Shown: positions 16,532-26,325 of the stretch, one piece after another | Layout: each line of letters starts with the position of its first letter | How positions within the stretch are numbered: the first letter of the stretch is position 1 | Source: Anaeroplasmataceae bacterium | Lineage (GTDB): Bacteria; Bacillota_I; Bacilli_A; Acholeplasmatales; Anaeroplasmataceae | Direction of reading: 5' to 3' | Assembly (NCBI GenBank): GCA_029057785.1 | Contig: JAIDZC010000021.1 | Location: 69,209-103,155 of the forward strand | Length of the DNA stretch: 33,947 bases | The notes under the pieces: model-generated | The model's input: only the letters and a program-made list of their open reading frames with translations | What the model was told of the DNA's origin: nothing | Database searches by the model: none | Program-made: the position numbers and the translations under genes

Positions 16532-19081
16532 CTATTCTTCTTTAAGCTCATATAAAAGCTTTAATGCATCTAGAGGAGTTAAACAATTTAAGTCAATCTC
16601 ATCTAAACGCTTTTGGGTCTTCTCTGCACGTGTTTCTTTTTTCACTTCTTCCTTAGAGTCATACTCTAAGAAATTAAATAAATCCATTGAAATTCCCTTA
16701 TTTGTATTGGATTCTTCTTCTAATTGATTCAATATCATTTTACTTCTTGCTATAAGTGATTTTGGTAGACCTGCAAGACTTGCAACATTGATACCATAGC
16801 TCTTATCTGTTGGCCCGTCTAAAACCTTATGTAAGAAAGCAACCCCTTGTTCAGTTTCTTTTGCTTCAACGTGAACATTTTTTAATCGCTTCAGCTTTTG
16901 ATCTAATACAGTCAACTCATGATAATGTGTAGAAAATAAGGTTACACAGCCAATACGTTCATGAACATATTCTAAGATTGCTTGAGCTAAAGCCATACCA
17001 TCATATGTCGCTGTACCACGACCAATTTCATCAAAAAGAATCAAGCTATCCTTTGTAGCATTGGATATAGCGTAATTTGCCTCCATCATTTCTACCATAA
17101 AGGTAGACTGTCCAGAAACCAAATCATCTGAGGCTCCAATACGAGTATAGATTGCATCAAATATCATTAAATCAGCAAGCTTTGCCGGAACAAAGGAACC
17201 AATTTGAGCAAGAATCGCAATAGTTGCAAGCATACGCATATAAGTGGATTTACCACTCATATTTGGGCCTGTAATTAACATCATATTATAGGTATTAATT
17301 TCTACATCATTGACAATGTATCCAGATTTCATAATCATCTCTAAAACAGGATGACGTCCATCTACAATCGTGACTTTTCTATTTGTATTAAAGGTTGGTC
17401 TAACATAGTTTTGTTTTACGGCAACATCACTTAAAGCAATATAACAATCTATTGTTGCTAAATGATCTGCAAGATTTTGTAAAGATACGATATAGGAAGA
17501 TGCAATGGTTCTTAATTTACTAAAAATTTCATATTCTAAAGACACAATTTGTTCATTAGAATGAAGAACAATGTCCTCATATTCCTTTAATTCCTTTGAA
17601 ATAAAGCGTTCTGCGTTCGCTAGAGTAGCTCTTCTTTCATAGCCAATATCCTCAGGTAAATTAGCCAGTGCTCCTTTAGATACTTCGATATAATATCCTG
17701 TCACACGATTATAACCAACCTTTAAGGTTTTAATACCTGTGATTTCCTTTTGTCTTCGTTCGTAGTTTAATATCCATTCCTTACTATTAGTTAAAATGGA
17801 TTTGATTTCATCTAGCTTAGAATCAAAGCCTTCCTTAATCATTCCGCCCTCTTTGATAGATAAAGGGGGATTATCTACTAAAGCGTCAGATAAAATGCCA
17901 TATAGCTCCTGATGATCTAAAATTTCTTCTGCATAGGCTTTAGCACTTGCTAAGTCAAGTCCTTCTATCAAATTCTTGATTTCTGGAATATATTGTAAGG
18001 ATTTTCTTAGCCAAACCAAATCCTTTGCATTAGCATTACCAGAGGCAATTCGACCAATAATACGCTCTAGGTCATAGACACTTTTAAAATATTCCTTGAT
18101 TTGAGCCTTTTCAAGATAATGATGATTAAAGCATTCTACAAAATCTAATCTTTTTTGGATGGCAATGTGATCAAGAAGCGGCTTATCTAACCATTTATGA
18201 AGCATTCTTGAACCCATAGCAGTTTCACAATGATCCAAATGCCATAATAAAGAACCTGATTTATTGTTATATCTTAACGTTTCACATATTTCTAGATTCT
18301 TCTTTGTGAAAGCATCTAGATGAAGATATTGTTCATGAATGTAGTTTTGAATAGGCTTTAAATGGGATGGCATCTGTTTTTTTGTTTCAATGAAGTAGTG
18401 TAAAATTACTCCTATTGCAGGATGATATTCTTCTTCAATGTTTGAAACAATTCCTTCTAATTCAGAAGGAATAAGTGATTTTTCTACACGAGATAATACA
18501 ATTTGATTTTGTTTTACAAATTCAGATAGTCTTTGATTCATATATTTACTATCTATGACAATTTCCTTAATGTGTAAGGATAGGATTTCATTTGCAAGAA
18601 CCTCAAAATTATTTAATTTTGTGATATATCCTTCTCCTGTAGATAAATCACAGTAGCATAAAATAAAATCATTTTTGATTTGAAGAATTCCAGCAATATA
18701 ATTATTTTCTTTATCGTTTAATCCTGAGTCTAATGTACCAGGAGTAATAATCTTAACTACACCACGTTTTACAATACCTTTTGCAGCCTTAGGATCCTCT
18801 ACTTGCTCAACGATAGCTACTTTATAGCCCTTAGAAATTAATCTTTCAGCATAGGGTTCATAAGCATGAAAAGGGACGCCACACATTGGTACACGTTCCT
18901 TTACACCAGCATCCTTACCTGTTAGGGCAAGCTCTAGTTCTTTAGCACCAGTATGGGCATCCTCAAAAAACATTTCATAGAAGTCTCCAACTCTATAAAA
19001 TAATATTGTATCTGGATAGTCTTTTTTTATTTCTAAATACTGCTCCATCATTGGAGTGTACTTTACTTCTTTTTCTTTCAT
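16532..19081 (-). CDS. mutS: DNA mismatch recognition ATPase MutS
   Basis: MutS binds mismatches and small loops and starts repair. The 849-residue product shows the Phe-X-Glu mismatch-reading motif as FYE at residues 34-36 (in GDFYEMFFEDA), the lever and clamp regions, and the ABC-type ATPase with P-loop TGPNMSGKST near residue 605, FMVEMMEA, LILFDEIGRGTATYDG and FSTHYHEL. The C-terminal helix-turn-helix region ends the protein. It begins 9 bases after the acidic membrane-anchored gene with GAGGTAG as binding site, so its expression is tied to the two unknown genes upstream. Confidence 0.98.
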   Translation of the reverse strand: MKEKEVKYTPMMEQYLEIKKDYPDTILFYRVGDFYEMFFEDAHTGAKELELALTGKDAGVKERVPMCGVPFHAYEPYAERLISKGYKVAIVEQVEDPKAAKGIVKRGVVKIITPGTLDSGLNDKENNYIAGILQIKNDFILCYCDLSTGEGYITKLNNFEVLANEILSLHIKEIVIDSKYMNQRLSEFVKQNQIVLSRVEKSLIPSELEGIVSNIEEEYHPAIGVILHYFIETKKQMPSHLKPIQNYIHEQYLHLDAFTKKNLEICETLRYNNKSGSLLWHLDHCETAMGSRMLHKWLDKPLLDHIAIQKRLDFVECFNHHYLEKAQIKEYFKSVYDLERIIGRIASGNANAKDLVWLRKSLQYIPEIKNLIEGLDLASAKAYAEEILDHQELYGILSDALVDNPPLSIKEGGMIKEGFDSKLDEIKSILTNSKEWILNYERRQKEITGIKTLKVGYNRVTGYYIEVSKGALANLPEDIGYERRATLANAERFISKELKEYEDIVLHSNEQIVSLEYEIFSKLRTIASSYIVSLQNLADHLATIDCYIALSDVAVKQNYVRPTFNTNRKVTIVDGRHPVLEMIMKSGYIVNDVEINTYNMMLITGPNMSGKSTYMRMLATIAILAQIGSFVPAKLADLMIFDAIYTRIGASDDLVSGQSTFMVEMMEANYAISNATKDSLILFDEIGRGTATYDGMALAQAILEYVHERIGCVTLFSTHYHELTVLDQKLKRLKNVHVEAKETEQGVAFLHKVLDGPTDKSYGINVASLAGLPKSLIARSKMILNQLEEESNTNKGISMDLFNFLEYDSKEEVKKETRAEKTQKRLDEIDLNCLTPLDALKLLYELKEE

Positions 19082-19090
19082 AACTACCTC

Positions 19091-20011
19091 TTATTTAAAT
19101 GCATGTAGAATAGCAAAAATAGAGATAAAAACACCTAGGAAGATCATAACAGAAACCAAAGATAAAATCACAGGCTTCAAATGAAAATTCATTTTTCTAC
19201 TTCTATAGTATGGATTTTGTTCTAAAAGTGGAATATCCTTTTGGCTTTCATATGGTACATCCATGAGAGGTCCTGCTGGAACAGGAGGCATAAAATATTC
19301 TGGATCATTTGTTGGTTGGGGAAGCATTGCTTTTGGATAAGCATAATCTGATGCCATATATTCAGAAGGCATTTGATTATTTGTTTCAAGCTGAACTAAT
19401 GTTTCCATCATTTGTCTCATGCTGTCATCTGGATACTCATTATCATCAATTGGTTCTTCCAGTGCAACCTCGGGTTCAATAAATTCTTCTACATCTTCAG
19501 GCTCGAATTCTCTTGCATAAGTTTCATTTTCAAGATTTTCTAATGGTTCCTTTTCTACTTCTTCAACAGCTTCTTCTTTTGAATCCAAATCAAGTACAGG
19601 AAGTATAACCTCAGTATCATCAAATAAACTTGTATCTGAATTTTGATCAATACTATCTACAACAAAGGATTCTTCATTTTCTACGACAGAAGGTGCCTCT
19701 TCAATAGGTTGTGGCTCTTTTATTTCCTCTACAGTTTCTTCAAAGTCATCCTCTTCTGGTTCAAAATTATAGGAATTATACTCATCATTGTCATCATATT
19801 CCTCTTCTTCATCTTCATAAGTATTGATTTTTTGATTTGCATTGGATTCATAAACCTTAAGTGTAGGCTTTTGATATTCTTTTTTCTTAGGAGCAGCTTG
19901 AGGATAAAGAATTTTTTCTATTTTCTTCTCAGGCTGAACCTCCTTTTTAGGCTCATCAACCTCTTTAGGAAGTGGCTCTTCTTCCTTAGGAGTGAAGACA
20001 ATATTATCCAT
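19091..20011 (-). CDS. Acidic low-complexity protein with C-terminal membrane anchor; probable 3' part of a frameshifted gene
   Basis: Not a recognised family. From the ATG at 20011 the product is 306 residues: a lysine/proline-rich start, a long disordered Glu/Asp-rich middle (about 60-205), then a Tyr/Pro-rich stretch, RSRK and one membrane helix at about 281-305 (VILSLVSVMIFLGVFISIFA). The basic residues before the helix predict the N-terminal part to be cytoplasmic. The ATG has no Shine-Dalgarno sequence. The same frame stays open upstream without any ATG, GTG or TTG until 20167, through a coding-like 42-codon extension (KVDRRLVDEILEKIQSL), into the run of ten A in the preceding gene. It is therefore probably made as an extension of that gene. 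Confidence 0.7.
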   Translation of the reverse strand: MDNIVFTPKEEEPLPKEVDEPKKEVQPEKKIEKILYPQAAPKKKEYQKPTLKVYESNANQKINTYEDEEEEYDDNDEYNSYNFEPEEDDFEETVEEIKEPQPIEEAPSVVENEESFVVDSIDQNSDTSLFDDTEVILPVLDLDSKEEAVEEVEKEPLENLENETYAREFEPEDVEEFIEPEVALEEPIDDNEYPDDSMRQMMETLVQLETNNQMPSEYMASDYAYPKAMLPQPTNDPEYFMPPVPAGPLMDVPYESQKDIPLLEQNPYYRSRKMNFHLKPVILSLVSVMIFLGVFISIFAILHAFK

Positions 20012-20124
20012 CTTTAGAGTTCCATTGTCTCTAAGGCTTTGGATTTTTTCTAAAATTTCATCAACTAATCTTCTATCGACTTTTGTCGCTTTTTGTTCTT
20101 TAGGTGTTAAAGGAGATGGTTTAC

Positions 20125-21285
20125 TTAGTTCCTGCTCTTTTTTTTTTGCTGTACCACTATAGTTTTCTTAGTTGTGGAAGTCTTCTTTGGCTGTTGAACA
20201 GAGATGCCATGATTAATGGCAAGTCTTGCAGTTTCCTCATCAATATTTAAATATGGTAAAAGCTTTTGAATGACTTCTGTCACGATATCTTCTTGAGATT
20301 TCTTTTTCTTTGGTTTTACGATTTCTTCTTCAACGATTTCTTCAAGATGATCAAAATCATCAACCTCATCCTCTTCTAAATAGATTACCTTCTTCGCTTT
20401 TCCTCTCTTGAAATTATCAATAGCATCTAAATCTACTCTAAACTTTAGCGGAGCGGCAAAATCACTACCGATAATAGTTTTGGCTTCAATATGTGCAAAT
20501 TTGGCTTGTTTAACAAGGAATAAGAATAAATTAATAAGTTCTTCTTTTTTCAATACAGAAGAAATACCTAGACCTTGCAATTTACAAAATTCATTTAATT
20601 GAGTAATGGTCATATTGCTTAATTCTCTACCCAATAACAAGGTAAGCTTCTTTTTAGCTCTCATCATATCTCTTACGTATAAATAAAGATCTTCCTTCTT
20701 TAAACGTGCTGGGATATCAAATCCATACTTTATACCTAGCATACGGATTTCTTCTTGCGAGAATGAATCTCTTAATAATTCCTCTAATTTATTTATTGGA
20801 TAAGCATCAAATTCTTTTGAAAGATCTAAAGTCACACTAAAAATTGCTTTAGAATAGGATGAGAAGGTTTCTACTTTATATTTCTTCATATTGATTAAGC
20901 GAGTTACTTCACCATCCTGAAGATTAATGCCCATATGGTTGCGAATTAATAGCTTCCAAAGATTTTTGCGGTAAAGATAGTAATCCTCTTCTGAACCAAT
21001 TTTTTCAAATAAGCTTTGTAGTTGGAATTCTGTGAAAGATTCATAAGATTCTAAATTCGCAAAAGCATCCCTTGTTAGAGAATGTGAATCTAATGTCTTA
21101 ATTCTTTCATTCAAGGCACTTGTCAAAGCCATTGCATTAATTTTTCTTGGAATTTTTGTAGGACGTTCAGTAAAAAACTTTTTAGTTTGTTCTCCACTAA
21201 GTAATGCAAGCTTTGAAGCAATTGTTTCAAGCCCCATTCTCTTATTGAAAATAACTACGATTTCCTTATCAGTAATATATTCCAT
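20125..21285 (-). CDS. Unknown protein with two SAP/HeH-like helical repeats; 0-frame part of a possible frameshift pair
   Basis: I do not recognise the family. The 386-residue product is helical and soluble. Residues about 175-209 and 223-259 look like two related helix-extension-helix (SAP-like) units: each has a leading helix, a short link and a final LKKEDLYLYV or LKKEELINLF helix. SAP units often bind DNA or RNA, so nucleic-acid binding is a reasonable guess, not shown. Residues 301-325 are acidic, then a Lys-rich tail reaches a run of ten A and a stop 12 bases later. The start is an ATG with AAGG upstream and a good sigma-A promoter. It is the first gene of the operon leading to mutSL. 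Confidence 0.75.
   Translation of the reverse strand: MEYITDKEIVVIFNKRMGLETIASKLALLSGEQTKKFFTERPTKIPRKINAMALTSALNERIKTLDSHSLTRDAFANLESYESFTEFQLQSLFEKIGSEEDYYLYRKNLWKLLIRNHMGINLQDGEVTRLINMKKYKVETFSSYSKAIFSVTLDLSKEFDAYPINKLEELLRDSFSQEEIRMLGIKYGFDIPARLKKEDLYLYVRDMMRAKKKLTLLLGRELSNMTITQLNEFCKLQGLGISSVLKKEELINLFLFLVKQAKFAHIEAKTIIGSDFAAPLKFRVDLDAIDNFKRGKAKKVIYLEEDEVDDFDHLEEIVEEEIVKPKKKKSQEDIVTEVIQKLLPYLNIDEETARLAINHGISVQQPKKTSTTKKTIVVQQKKKSRN
20138..20147 (-). promoter_or_regulatory. Run of ten A with A-AAA-AAG slippery heptamer (candidate -1 frameshift or transcriptional slippage site)
   Basis: In the 0 frame the codons are CAA AAA AAA AAG AGC AGG AAC TAA. The heptamer A AAA AAG is in the correct register for -1 slippage, as in E. 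coli dnaX. The -1 frame opens at 20167 and the 0-frame stop is at 20125-20127, so any shift must happen in this window of about 43 bases. After a -1 shift the frame runs without a stop into the acidic membrane-anchored protein. I saw no convincing upstream Shine-Dalgarno stimulator and only weak hairpins downstream. A run of ten A can also cause RNA polymerase slippage, or be an indel artefact. Confidence 0.55.
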
Positions 21286-21322: not shown

Positions 21323-21351
21323 ATAATATAATAAAATGAGCAAAATTTCAA
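21323..21351 (-). promoter_or_regulatory. Sigma-A promoter of the mutSL-containing operon
   Basis: On the minus strand TTGAAA (21346-21351), a 17-base spacer and TATTAT (21323-21328). The predicted start near 21316 gives a leader of about 30 bases to the ATG at 21285. Confidence 0.82.
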
Positions 21352-21413: not shown

Positions 21414-21442
21414 GAAAAAGTCAAGGGGTTCCTTGGCTTTTT
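21414..21442 (-). terminator. Intrinsic terminator of the pfl operon
   Basis: On the minus strand AAAAAG-c-CAAGG pairs with CCTTG-a-CTTTTT around a 4-base loop, overlapping the stop of the glycyl-radical domain gene and followed by more T. The A/T arms make it usable in both directions. Confidence 0.85.
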
Positions 21443-21671
21443 ACATTGCTTCATGAATGGTACGAGCAATAACATCATCTTGTTGTTCTTTCGTAAGTTT
21501 AATAAAATTTACGGCATAACCTGATACTCTAATAGTCAACTGAGGATATTTTTCAGGATGCTTTTGGGCATCTAAAAGTGTTTCTCGATTGAACACATTT
21601 ACATTTAAATGATATCCTCCATTGCCCATATAAGCATCTAGCATCTGTACTAAATTATCAACTCTAGACAT
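21441..21671 (-). CDS. Stand-alone glycyl-radical domain (C-terminal piece of pyruvate formate-lyase)
   Basis: The 76-residue product equals the C-terminal end of pyruvate formate-lyase. It contains [14 protein letters not shown] and the radical motif RVSGYAV with Gly51 as the predicted radical site, ending in [17 protein letters not shown]. The frame starts with ATG one base after the stop of the 676-residue body, shifted by one frame. AAGGA lies 11 bases upstream, inside the codons for GKEE of the body, so translational re-initiation is possible. E. coli GrcA (YfiD) is a precedent for an autonomous glycyl-radical domain that restores a damaged lyase, though it is longer (about 127 residues). 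Alternatively this is simply the tail of a gene broken by a one-base change or by a sequencing error. Confidence 0.85.
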
Positions 21672-21672
21672 C

Positions 21673-23703
21673 TTATACTTCTTCCTTTCCTAAGGATTGA
21701 GGTGTTACAGAAAAGGTATTCGAGATTCCATCCCTAGAATATTCATAAGGAAGCTTAGCTACGGATTCTAAGGAAGCAAGCGCTCCTTTTACGTCTCTTC
21801 CATGCATCGGATTAGCACCAGGAGCTAAAGGCTCTCCAGCCTTTCTTCCATCAGGAGTATTCCCGGTATTCTTTCCATAAACTACATTGGAAGTAATTGT
21901 TAAGATTGATGTGGTAGGAATAGATTCTCTATAAGTGGTATGCTTTTTAATTTTACTCATGAAGGTTTTCACAAGCCATACTGCTAGATGATCAACACGA
22001 TCATCATTATTCCCGTATTTTGGAAAGTCCCCTTCAATTCTAAAATCTACAATTATACCTTTATCATTTCTTATTGGATAAACCTTTGCATATTTAATAG
22101 CTGATAAGGAATCTGCTGCACAGGAAAGCCCTGCAATCCCTGTGGCAAAAAACCTTCTTACCTTTGAATCATGTAATGCCATTTCTAATGCTTCATAGGA
22201 ATATTTATCATGCATATAATGAATCAAGTTTAATGTATTTACATAAACTCCTGCAAGCCACTCCATCATTTGTTCATATTTGAGAATGACTTCATCATAG
22301 CATAATGGGCCATCGCCTTCTATTCCTTCAAAAAGCGGAGAAACCTGAAATGGTTCATTTGTTTTAGGATCTATAATAAGCTCATCTTTTCCTCCATTTA
22401 AGGCATATAACAGACATTTGGCAAGATTAGCACGAGCCCCAAAGAATTGCATATCCTTACCTACACGCATTGGAGAAACACAACATGCAATACAATAATC
22501 ATCTCCTAATTCTATTCTCATCAAATCATCTGATTCATATTGAATAGATGAGGTTTGAATAGAAATTTCTGCACAAAATCGCTTAAAGTTAATAGGTAAG
22601 TTTTGACTCCATAAAACAGTTAAATTTGGTTCAGGAGCAGGACCTAAATTGATTAGAGTATGTAAGATTCTAAATGCTGTTTTTGTGACTAGTGGTCGAC
22701 CATCTACTCCCATACCACCAATTGATTCTGTAACCCATGTTGGATCTCCTGAAAATAATTGATTATAGGATGAAATACGCATAAATTTAATAATTCTTAA
22801 CTTCATAATAAAGTGATCAATAAGCTCTTGTGCCTCATGCTCTGTAATTTTGTTGTTTTTCAGATCTCTTTCAATGTAGATATCTAGGAAAGTTGAATTT
22901 CTTCCTATTGACATTGCTGCACCATTTTGTTCCTTTGTGGCAGCAAGATAGCCAAAGTACAAGGCCTGAATAGCTTCTTGAGCTGTTTTTGCAGGTTTAG
23001 AAATATCACACTCATAGATTTCAGCAAGCTTTTTTAAATTCTCTAATGCTCTAATTTGCTCTGATAATTCTTCTCGATCTCTGATTTTGTCAGGAGTCAT
23101 GTCCCCATCAATTTCTTCTTTATCCAGCTTCTTATGGCGAATGAGCTCATCTACTCCATATAGGGCAACACGCCGATAATCGCCCACGATTCTTCCTCGT
23201 CCATAGGAATCTGGTAACCCAGTCAAAATATGGGCCTTACGACAAGCACGCATTTGACTTGTATAGGCATCATAAACACCATCGTTATGTGTCTTGCGAT
23301 ATTTCGTGAAAATCTCTTTTACTCTATCTGTGACTTCATATCCATACATTTGGCATGCTTGAACAGACATTTTGATTCCACCATAAGGTTGTAAAGCTCT
23401 TTTAAAAGGTTTATCTGTTTGTAAGCCCACAATTTTTTCTAGTTTCCGATCAATATATCCTGCAGAATGGCTTGTTTGACTAGAGATAATATCTGTATCT
23501 GCATCTAGTACTCCTCCTGCTTCACGTTCTTTTTTGGATAATTCTAAAATTTTATGCCATAAGGTAACTGTGGCTTTTGTAGGACCTTCTAAAAAACTAG
23601 AATCTCCTTCATATGGTTCATAATTTTTTTGGATGAAATCTCTGACATCTATTTCACCTTCACACCATCTTCCAGGCTTAAATCCTTCCCATGCTTCTAT
23701 CAT
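21673..23703 (-). CDS. pflB: Pyruvate formate-lyase (formate C-acetyltransferase) body lacking the glycyl-radical segment
   Basis: The enzyme cleaves pyruvate with CoA to acetyl-CoA and formate under anoxic conditions. The 676 residues begin with [20 protein letters not shown], the normal N-terminus, and hold the active-site cysteine pair in [11 protein letters not shown] near residue 408. They end at [10 protein letters not shown], where other lyases continue into the radical loop. Adding the following 76-residue ORF gives 752 residues, close to the 760 of the E. coli enzyme, so nothing else appears lost. The ATG overlaps the pflA stop as ATGA. Without the separate domain the protein should be inactive, because the radical glycine is missing. 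Confidence 0.93.
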
Positions 23704-24562: not shown

Positions 24563-26266
24563 TTAGTTAGTTGACTCCCATTGAGTTGGAACACCATTGA
24601 CATAGTGCCAATAATTGCCTGTCTTATCTGGTTCTACACTACTATACCAATATGCTTGTAATGCAAAATAGCTATCTGCCAAATTCCAATCTTCACTCCA
24701 AGAATCAGGCTTTGAAGGTGCTTCACAATATAGGATTAAACTACTCTTCCCCAAAAATGAGTTCATACAGCCATAAAATGCATCCTTTTCTATGCTCAAG
24801 ACAGTATCTGGAATGATTACTGCAGTAAGATTATTAAAGCCATAAAATTGATTTGTATTTATTTTGGTTATGATATCTGGTATTTTTATACTTGTGACTT
24901 CTTCCCATATGTAATCATTGTTTCTTAGATAAAAATGATTTGAATTATAAGAATAGAAAACTGATCCATCAAATACGATTCTACACCAATCTTCTATAGT
25001 ACCTTCATAATAAACCTCTGTTAGAGCGTAACACTTTTGGAAAGCATTCTTTCCTATTTTTGTTACACGATTTGGAAGTATTATGCTTGTTAACTTGCTG
25101 CACCCTTCAAAAGCACTCTCTCCTATGCTTTCTACACTATTTGGAATTATAATACTTGTTAACTGACTACATCCTTTAAATGTATTTACTTCTATGCTTG
25201 TTACACTATTTGGAATTACAATGCTTGTAAGGTTCTTACAATCAGTAAATGCACCCTCTCCTATACTCGTCACACCAGCTGGTATATTTATGCTCGTAAG
25301 GTTATTGCAGCCACTAAAAGCAACAGTACCTATACTTGTCACACTATCTGGAAGTACTATGCTTGTCAACCTACTACAATTGAGGAAGGCACCAATACCA
25401 ATACTTGTCCCTCCTGTAATAATGACTTCTTTTAAACTTTTTGGAACTTCTACTGAATTAGTGGCGGATCTATCTGCCCCAAAGATAAAACCAAAATGTG
25501 TTTTGTTTGAAGGAAGATTAGAGCCTACAAATGGCAAGGTTATACTTGTAAGGCTGGTGCATTCACTGAAGGCACAGTAGCCTATACTTGTCACACTGTT
25601 AGGTATAACAGCTGATGTAATATATTTAAATCCCCAGAATTGATAGCCTCCTATTCCTGTTACAGAATCTGGTAGTTCTATCTTTGTTACTTCCTCCCAC
25701 TGGCTATCCGTATTTCTCAAATAGAAATGCTTTGCTCTACACATAGGATTAGAATCATATGTTTCAAATCTTATATTACACCAGTCTTCTATTTTTCCTT
25801 CGTAGTAAACGTTTGTTAATTTGTCACTATTAAAGAAGGCATGTTTTCCTATCTCTTTAATACTTGTGGGTATAACTATGCTAATTAATTTATTGTATTC
25901 TTGTGAAAAAAAATCTTCAACACCAGCAATGCTTACAACGGGTAAGTTTTTATACATACTAGGAATAACAACACTATCTTTCTGACAAAGGATTGATGTA
26001 ATAGTATATCCTGTTTCTTCCTCATTTAATTCAAAATTTAAACCCTCTGTGCCTTTTTGAAAGGAGCATAGAGTGCATATATCTTCTTCAAAAGTATGCT
26101 CCCCTCTTTCAATTTCATCTAGACATTCTTCACATAATTTATAATGCTCCTCTTCACTTATTACCCATTCATAGGAATGCGTATGCTTTTGACATGATGC
26201 TAAAAAGACCATCATAACAATGCAAACAGATAAACTTACAAAACCTAATCCAATTCTTTTCTTCAT
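24563..26266 (-). CDS. BspA-like leucine-rich repeat surface lipoprotein
   Basis: Proteins of this type are surface-exposed in gut and oral bacteria and are thought to mediate adhesion; the ligand here is unknown. The 567-residue product starts MKKRIGLGF with a lipoprotein signal peptide and lipobox LASC (Cys25). A His/Cys-rich segment follows (HTH; CEEC at 45-48; CTLC at 64-67), resembling a small metal-binding module. Then come LRR_5 repeats, with a run of five 23-residue units, and the family-typical C-terminus with GNYWHYVNGVP. A 75-residue module (VYYEGKIEDWCNI to IPNSVTSI) occurs twice, at about 153-228 and 418-492. I chose the ATG at 26266 (AAAGGA upstream, signal peptide at the very start) over the ATG at 26302. 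Confidence 0.9.
   Translation of the reverse strand: MKKRIGLGFVSLSVCIVMMVFLASCQKHTHSYEWVISEEEHYKLCEECLDEIERGEHTFEEDICTLCSFQKGTEGLNFELNEEETGYTITSILCQKDSVVIPSMYKNLPVVSIAGVEDFFSQEYNKLISIVIPTSIKEIGKHAFFNSDKLTNVYYEGKIEDWCNIRFETYDSNPMCRAKHFYLRNTDSQWEEVTKIELPDSVTGIGGYQFWGFKYITSAVIPNSVTSIGYCAFSECTSLTSITLPFVGSNLPSNKTHFGFIFGADRSATNSVEVPKSLKEVIITGGTSIGIGAFLNCSRLTSIVLPDSVTSIGTVAFSGCNNLTSINIPAGVTSIGEGAFTDCKNLTSIVIPNSVTSIEVNTFKGCSQLTSIIIPNSVESIGESAFEGCSKLTSIILPNRVTKIGKNAFQKCYALTEVYYEGTIEDWCRIVFDGSVFYSYNSNHFYLRNNDYIWEEVTSIKIPDIITKINTNQFYGFNNLTAVIIPDTVLSIEKDAFYGCMNSFLGKSSLILYCEAPSKPDSWSEDWNLADSYFALQAYWYSSVEPDKTGNYWHYVNGVPTQWESTN
25055..25399 (-). repeat. Five tandem 69-base units encoding LRR_5 repeats
   Basis: Five back-to-back 23-residue units of the pattern G-x-x-AF-x-x-C-x-x-LTSI-x-(I/L)P-x-x-V-T-S-I. 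The DNA copies are related but not identical, as expected of old protein repeats. Confidence 0.85.
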
Positions 26267-26325
26267 AACTTTTTCCTTTCCTATAGACTCTCTTAAAATC
26301 ATTTTTTACTCTCTTGTTTGTCATT

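Follow-up and report, generated by a model that had tools for sequence, protein, structure and literature searches.

Slippage at a conserved A10 run ahead of mutS very probably yields soluble and membrane-anchored forms of one protein in an uncultured Mollicutes-type genus

The closest published case to the locus described here is tssM of Citrobacter rodentium and Yersinia (PMC4256274). In C. rodentium an A11 run lies before a premature stop and, with no stimulatory elements, transcriptional slippage at ~20-25% adds an A and restores the frame (PMC4256274). A conserved A9 run in Thermus thermophilus dnaX gives products of two lengths by transcriptional slippage (PMC1088944, PMC5009743), a case in which the presence of two lysine tRNAs has been argued to favour slipping of the polymerase over that of the ribosome (review PMC5009743). 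In the editing of the Ebola virus glycoprotein, slippage on an A run selects between a soluble and a transmembrane form (PMC5009743).

The locus analysed here lies wholly on the minus strand of the window, by which we mean the whole stretch of 33,947 nucleotides under study, taken from a genome of the Anaeroplasmataceae (G000). Its features are listed in Table 1. The 386-codon ORF ends with GTA CAG CAA AAA AAA AAG AGC AGG AAC TAA, and the ten-A run and the two stops on either side of it, as given in a previous sequence-only reading, were confirmed to the base. As the -1 frame is open only between the stops at 20168-20170 and 19091-19093, a shift into this frame is confined to 40 nt; the earlier reading had rightly placed the run within this interval, with a size of about 43 bases that is here corrected. 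Joining of the 0 and -1 frames gives 731 codons (2192 nt + 1), in agreement with the fusion length proposed before, and the junction peptide of the long form includes KKKEQELSKPSPLTPK. Counted from the ATG that begins at 20011, the second ORF has 306 residues with the N-terminus MDNIVF. The sequence ahead of this ATG (CAATGGAACTCTAAAG-ATG) indeed lacks a Shine-Dalgarno sequence, and the ATG is located 126 nt past the run. mutS lies directly downstream, with its start 9 nt beyond the long-form stop. Automated annotation would give two unrelated hypothetical proteins at this locus.

Table 1 Window coordinates of the features at the A10 locus and its surroundings
Feature	Position	Strand	Remarks
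Short-form 0-frame ORF, 386 codons	20125..21285	-	predicted soluble; Rho_N/HeH/SAP-like module, K-rich tail
A10 run, C-A10-G, codons CAA AAA AAA AAG	20138..20147	-	one of 2 A>=10 runs in G000
0-frame stop TAA	20125..20127	-	10 nt past the A10 run
Nearest -1 frame stop upstream of the A10 run	20168..20170	-	
-1 frame, 358 open codons, C-terminal part of the long form	19091..20167	-	stop 19091-19093
Conserved -1 frame segment VDRRLVDEILEKIQSLRDNGTLK	20012..20080	-	upstream of the sole early ATG; aligns with fused relatives
ATG, would-be start of the second ORF	20009..20011	-	without Shine-Dalgarno; missing in fused G001 and in split G007, G004 and G003
C-terminal membrane helix (predicted tail anchor) of the long form	19094..19177	-	
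mutS	16532..19081	-	Shine-Dalgarno GAGG 19087-19090 directly after the long-form stop
Promoter-like TTGAAA-17-TATTAT	21323..21351	-	upstream of the gene; consensus match only, no commoner than in shuffles

The gene very probably yields two proteins by slippage, one soluble and the other the same protein anchored in the membrane, because the A run is kept out of frame in at least six related species. Our preferred explanation, which we regard as probable, is that one ancestral gene has acquired a programmed slippage site and that RNA polymerase slips on the A10 run to provide two isoforms. The unslipped mRNA would encode the soluble 386-residue protein, and mRNA carrying one additional A (or a run of different length but equal phase) would encode a product of 731 residues whose N-terminal domain, the same as in the short form, would be tethered to the membrane through an extended acidic linker and a helix at the C terminus. 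Slipping by RNA polymerase, the usefulness of both isoforms and nucleic-acid binding by the N domain are what we infer from these comparisons. The slippage reading as such appears strongly supported by conservation, the comparison with dnaX being its weakest part. The locus is a conserved A-run slippage site yielding two isoforms, a known kind of system, here in a new gene family. A cellular slippage gene with phylogenetic conservation is thereby added for an uncultured Mollicutes-type genus, and the locus illustrates a way in which ten bases could make soluble and membrane-bound forms out of one gene.

Like tssM, the locus has an A run shortly before a stop, no Shine-Dalgarno-like element or structure, and two lengths arising from one interrupted gene. 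Unlike tssM, it encodes an unrelated protein, and whereas the truncated form of tssM lacks a C-terminal domain, the predictions here are a soluble short form and a tail-anchored long form; the RNA heterogeneity measured for tssM (PMC4256274) would be expected here. With Thermus dnaX it shares a conserved A run giving two lengths as well as two lysine tRNAs, but the gene is different and the in-frame product in the window is the short form. Only the logic is alike in the Ebola glycoprotein, which involves a viral polymerase and a secreted protein.

Eleven species of the genus, G000 and ten others, were compared. An out-of-frame C-A10/A11 run in the same phase is present in six of them (G000, G002, G006, G007, G004 and G003), with short-form proteins sharing 94% (G002), 90% (G006), 73% (G007), 72% (G004) and 65% (G003) identity with that of G000, and the split state is kept down to ~62-65% protein identity. 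The codons CAA AAA AAA AAG are identical in five of these six species, while the last codon is AAA in G003, a substitution that therefore results in A11 with an unchanged phase. In all six split species the 0-frame stop is located 6-19 nt past the run, and the -1 frame extends over 341-385 codons with the same membrane helix at its end. The sequence-only reading had named nine or eleven A in a close strain as a sign of one uninterrupted gene; a frame-restoring run length was sought in the split relatives and none was found, the A11 of G003 keeping the phase.

Four further species (G005, G010, G008 and G009) contain a fused ORF and no run. The ORF of G001 is also fused, yet it carries A10 in the other register (GAG AAA AAA AAA ACA), so slippage there would truncate the product and provide short and long forms with exchanged roles. 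This arrangement, the long form in frame and the short form by slippage, has the polarity of Thermus thermophilus dnaX. These are the fused homologues which had earlier been suggested as a check. In a tree built on MutS and the N domain, two inner nodes of which are supported at only 55 and 73%, the split species are distributed over a nine-member clade, which also includes G001 and G005+G010. The simplest history comprises a single origin, a single loss (G005+G010) and a single register change (G001). Since G005 and G010, inside this clade, have lost the run and become fused, the two isoforms are not indispensable. Sister species with the opposite register, or fused without a run, form an unusually clear natural series that serves as a built-in control.

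The earlier description of the locus as a fusion of two unknown proteins has to be revised: the two ORFs appear to be one ancestral protein interrupted by the run, because relatives outside the clade encode a single ORF. Of the genomes searched, 45 of 55 in the family and 119 of 160 in the order contain a homologue of the N domain, and the family gene is usually one uninterrupted ORF directly before mutS. It is located just before mutS throughout the genus and in three family outgroups; for 12 further loci of the family and order, mutS was in the stretch examined for nine and directly after the gene in eight. Attention is thereby drawn to an order-wide uncharacterised protein family directly before mutS. 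Most of these 12 loci encode a hydrophobic helix near the C terminus (missing in G054, G067 and G068), every fused family member taken full-length has a C-terminal helix behind an acidic stretch, and the -1 frame of the window encodes the same C-terminal helix as the fused relatives. Mean hydropathy near the C terminus is 2.3-3.4 in the fused relatives, with a maximum of ~1.1-1.2 in the short forms. A single, extreme C-terminal hydrophobic helix and no N-terminal signal are predicted for the long form, as expected of a bacterial tail-anchored membrane protein. The soluble and membrane-tethered forms that had been proposed are supported.

The Pfam model Rho_N (PF07498) scored 15.5 bits with the window protein, compared to a curated cut-off of 24.9, and matched 20 of 29 N domains at E <= 0.1 (best 3.2e-8). 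A confident AlphaFold model (pLDDT 88) is mostly helical and has no clear relative in the PDB; a Foldseek search of this model against the PDB gave nothing at E <= 0.001, and the top rows of VIA-align, with TFIID at Z 4.2 over 42 residues, consisted of short helical matches only. Haemagglutinin HA2 segments from a profile search of solved structures (E ~0.03) were discarded as chance matches. The most economical reading would be a nucleic-acid-binding domain that is either free or membrane-tethered. Homologues of 384-389 aa elsewhere in the order were considered as further splits and rejected, as they contain no A run over 7; two short homologues have neither a membrane helix nor mutS in the stretch examined, and another has its own C-terminal helix. 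The two former, of 384 aa (L168 and L169, in G067 and G068), are probably soluble paralogues and may show the role of the soluble form by itself. In G020, an 854-aa family ORF with two tandem copies of the N domain (L179 1593-4155) lies directly before mutS. A degenerate-pattern search of the named genome collection returned only two relatives.

Pattern search on both strands of G000 (1.76 Mb) gave 308 runs of exactly A8, 21 of A9 and 2 of A>=10, a drop of about fifteen-fold from A8 to A9 and then ten-fold to A>=10, which suggests that long A runs are selected against. Avoidance of long A runs, where slippage occurs, has been reported in many bacteria (Baranov et al., PMC1088944). The five other split species contain 2-4 A>=10 runs per genome, one of them at the slippage locus. 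With the residues QKKK fixed and local codon usage applied, the probability of an A>=10 run (CAA AAA AAA AAR) is 0.12-0.43 per species, and the product over the six split species is 1.5e-4 on the assumption of independence, which does not hold fully. The other A>=10 runs inspected in the genus were rejected as similar splits: most of them lie between genes, at the end of a contig or in frame, and the one on G003:C109 is in frame within a HAD phosphatase, next to which lies a normal gene. The sole other A>=10 run of G000 (L049, G000:C32:99131) is in frame in a 508-codon ORF resembling a membrane-bound serpin. An A9 run at G000:C30:3523-3533 (L098), only a few residues from the end of a 173-codon open frame, is a possible second slippage site; this frame is overlapped by one of 129 codons in another phase.

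A minor but real possibility is that the run merely tolerates or rescues an old frameshift mutation and that only the long form matters, which would be compatible with either slipping machine. A-run frameshifts of this rescue type have been described for insect endosymbionts. One fused ORF is found in all other family members examined, and G005 and G010 are back to an uninterrupted ORF, as such a rescue would have it; however, the run has remained out of frame across a clade of nine, where the insertion or deletion of one base would repair it, stretches of nine or more A are strongly avoided elsewhere in the genome, and G001 has retained its A10 in the opposite register.

The ribosome rather than the polymerase may be the slipping machine, although we consider it rather unlikely that the long form is made by programmed -1 ribosomal frameshifting at A_AAA_AAG, in a dnaX-like manner without stimulators and with the same two products. 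As in E. coli dnaX, the heptamer A_AAA_AAG is in the -1 register; it is perfect in five split species, G003 having A_AAA_AAA instead, and is always in the -1 phase, a constancy that would be natural for ribosomal shifting. Ribosomes, too, have been described as sliding on A runs (PMC4363877). Yet ten or eleven A are retained where the heptamer needs six, and G001 still has A10 after losing both the register and AAG. An upstream Shine-Dalgarno-like element was absent in five of the six split species including G000 (AAGGA was found only in G004), and no stable downstream structure was predicted in any of the six (z-scores -1.02 to 1.83, pseudoknots being outside the model). Upstream hairpins were dismissed as evidence, with z of -2 to -3.6 in G002, G006 and G001 but not in G000, G007, G004 and G003. 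Genes for both tRNA-Lys(CUU) and tRNA-Lys(UUU) are present in G000, with an identical CUU gene in G003, G004 and G006 and no full match to it in G002 and G007, the drafts of which are fragmented or incomplete; tRNA-Lys(CUU) should hold AAG firmly.

The dnaX-like ribosomal mechanism first proposed for the locus therefore keeps its heptamer but, unlike E. coli dnaX, lacks the upstream Shine-Dalgarno sequence, the downstream stem-loop and the single lysine tRNA, and the shift in the window leads to the longer product. Owing to these missing elements and the second lysine tRNA (CUU), transcriptional slippage, which had been named as a possibility, fits better, and slipping by the polymerase would be clearly preferred over ribosomal shifting.

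Changes in A-run length during replication could alternatively toggle membrane anchoring between cells, as phase variation at the DNA level. Oligo-A contingency loci are known in Mollicutes and provide a precedent, A10 is long enough, and G001 would be in the on phase. This is nevertheless improbable, given that six of the seven A-run species have the same phase (the probability of at least six of seven alike under random phases is ~0.02) and that the A11 of G003 arose by substitution with no indel.

It is very improbable that there are two separate genes, with translation of the second beginning at 20011 by re-initiation or from a ribosome binding site of its own. The ATG of G000 has a counterpart at the same position in G002 and G006, but it has no Shine-Dalgarno sequence and lies well past the run, and the segment ahead of it is translated in the -1 frame. 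Over the 42 codons from the run to this ATG, dN/dS in the -1 frame is 0.17-0.35 for pairs among G000, G002 and G006, compared to 0.75-4.1 for the same DNA in the other two frames; in these species the remainder of the -1 frame gave 0.21-0.24, the whole -1 part 0.22-0.24 and the N part 0.05-0.07. These values indicate that the -1 frame is under purifying selection ahead of its first ATG. VDRRLVDEILEKIQSLRDNGTLK, encoded before the ATG, aligns with IDKKLVDEILDKIQKLRQSNSLK of the fused G001. No ATG, GTG or TTG occurs in the -1 frame after the run for 453 nt in G007 and for 401 nt in G003, and the relatives are fused. With start codons absent over these distances in the two species and the ATG lacking a Shine-Dalgarno sequence, re-initiation cannot supply the conserved protein and slippage must. 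Homologues of the second protein with an independent start were looked for and not found, and the sequence-only reading is borne out both in its fusion of the two frames by slippage at the run, supported by the conserved out-of-frame run and the selection on the -1 frame, and in its view that the second ORF is not started on its own.

Although the assemblies are draft metagenomes and homopolymers are error-prone, a sequencing or assembly error or a decaying pseudogene is hardly credible, as the phase is common to six separate genomes and the second frame is open for 341-385 codons under purifying selection; judged on these genomes, the A10 run is not a private sequencing error.

Beyond the two isoforms given by slippage, we find it scarcely likely that expression of mutS is set by the A run as well. 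Translation of slipped mRNA would bring ribosomes up to mutS and couple them to it, because the long-form stop abuts the mutS Shine-Dalgarno sequence (TAAGAGGTAGTTATG), and the unslipped mRNA would have ~1 kb untranslated ahead of mutS. Mismatch repair stabilises A runs, so the site, if this coupling is true, could form a feedback switch on mutation rate.

Two neighbouring genes of the window, both on the minus strand, may be mentioned. Pyruvate formate-lyase (21441-23703) is encoded by two coupled ORFs of 676 aa and 76 aa, a known kind of split. The 676-aa ORF is without the glycyl-radical end, and the 76-aa ORF, which starts 1 nt past its stop, contains RVSGYAV and scores just under the cut-off of NCBIfam GrcA3 (NF038360); a separate small glycyl-radical ORF is present in nine species of the genus. 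At 24563-26302, a 579-aa lipoprotein-like ORF with BspA-type leucine-rich repeats (SVTSIG...AF.GC..LTS) is likely to encode a surface protein.
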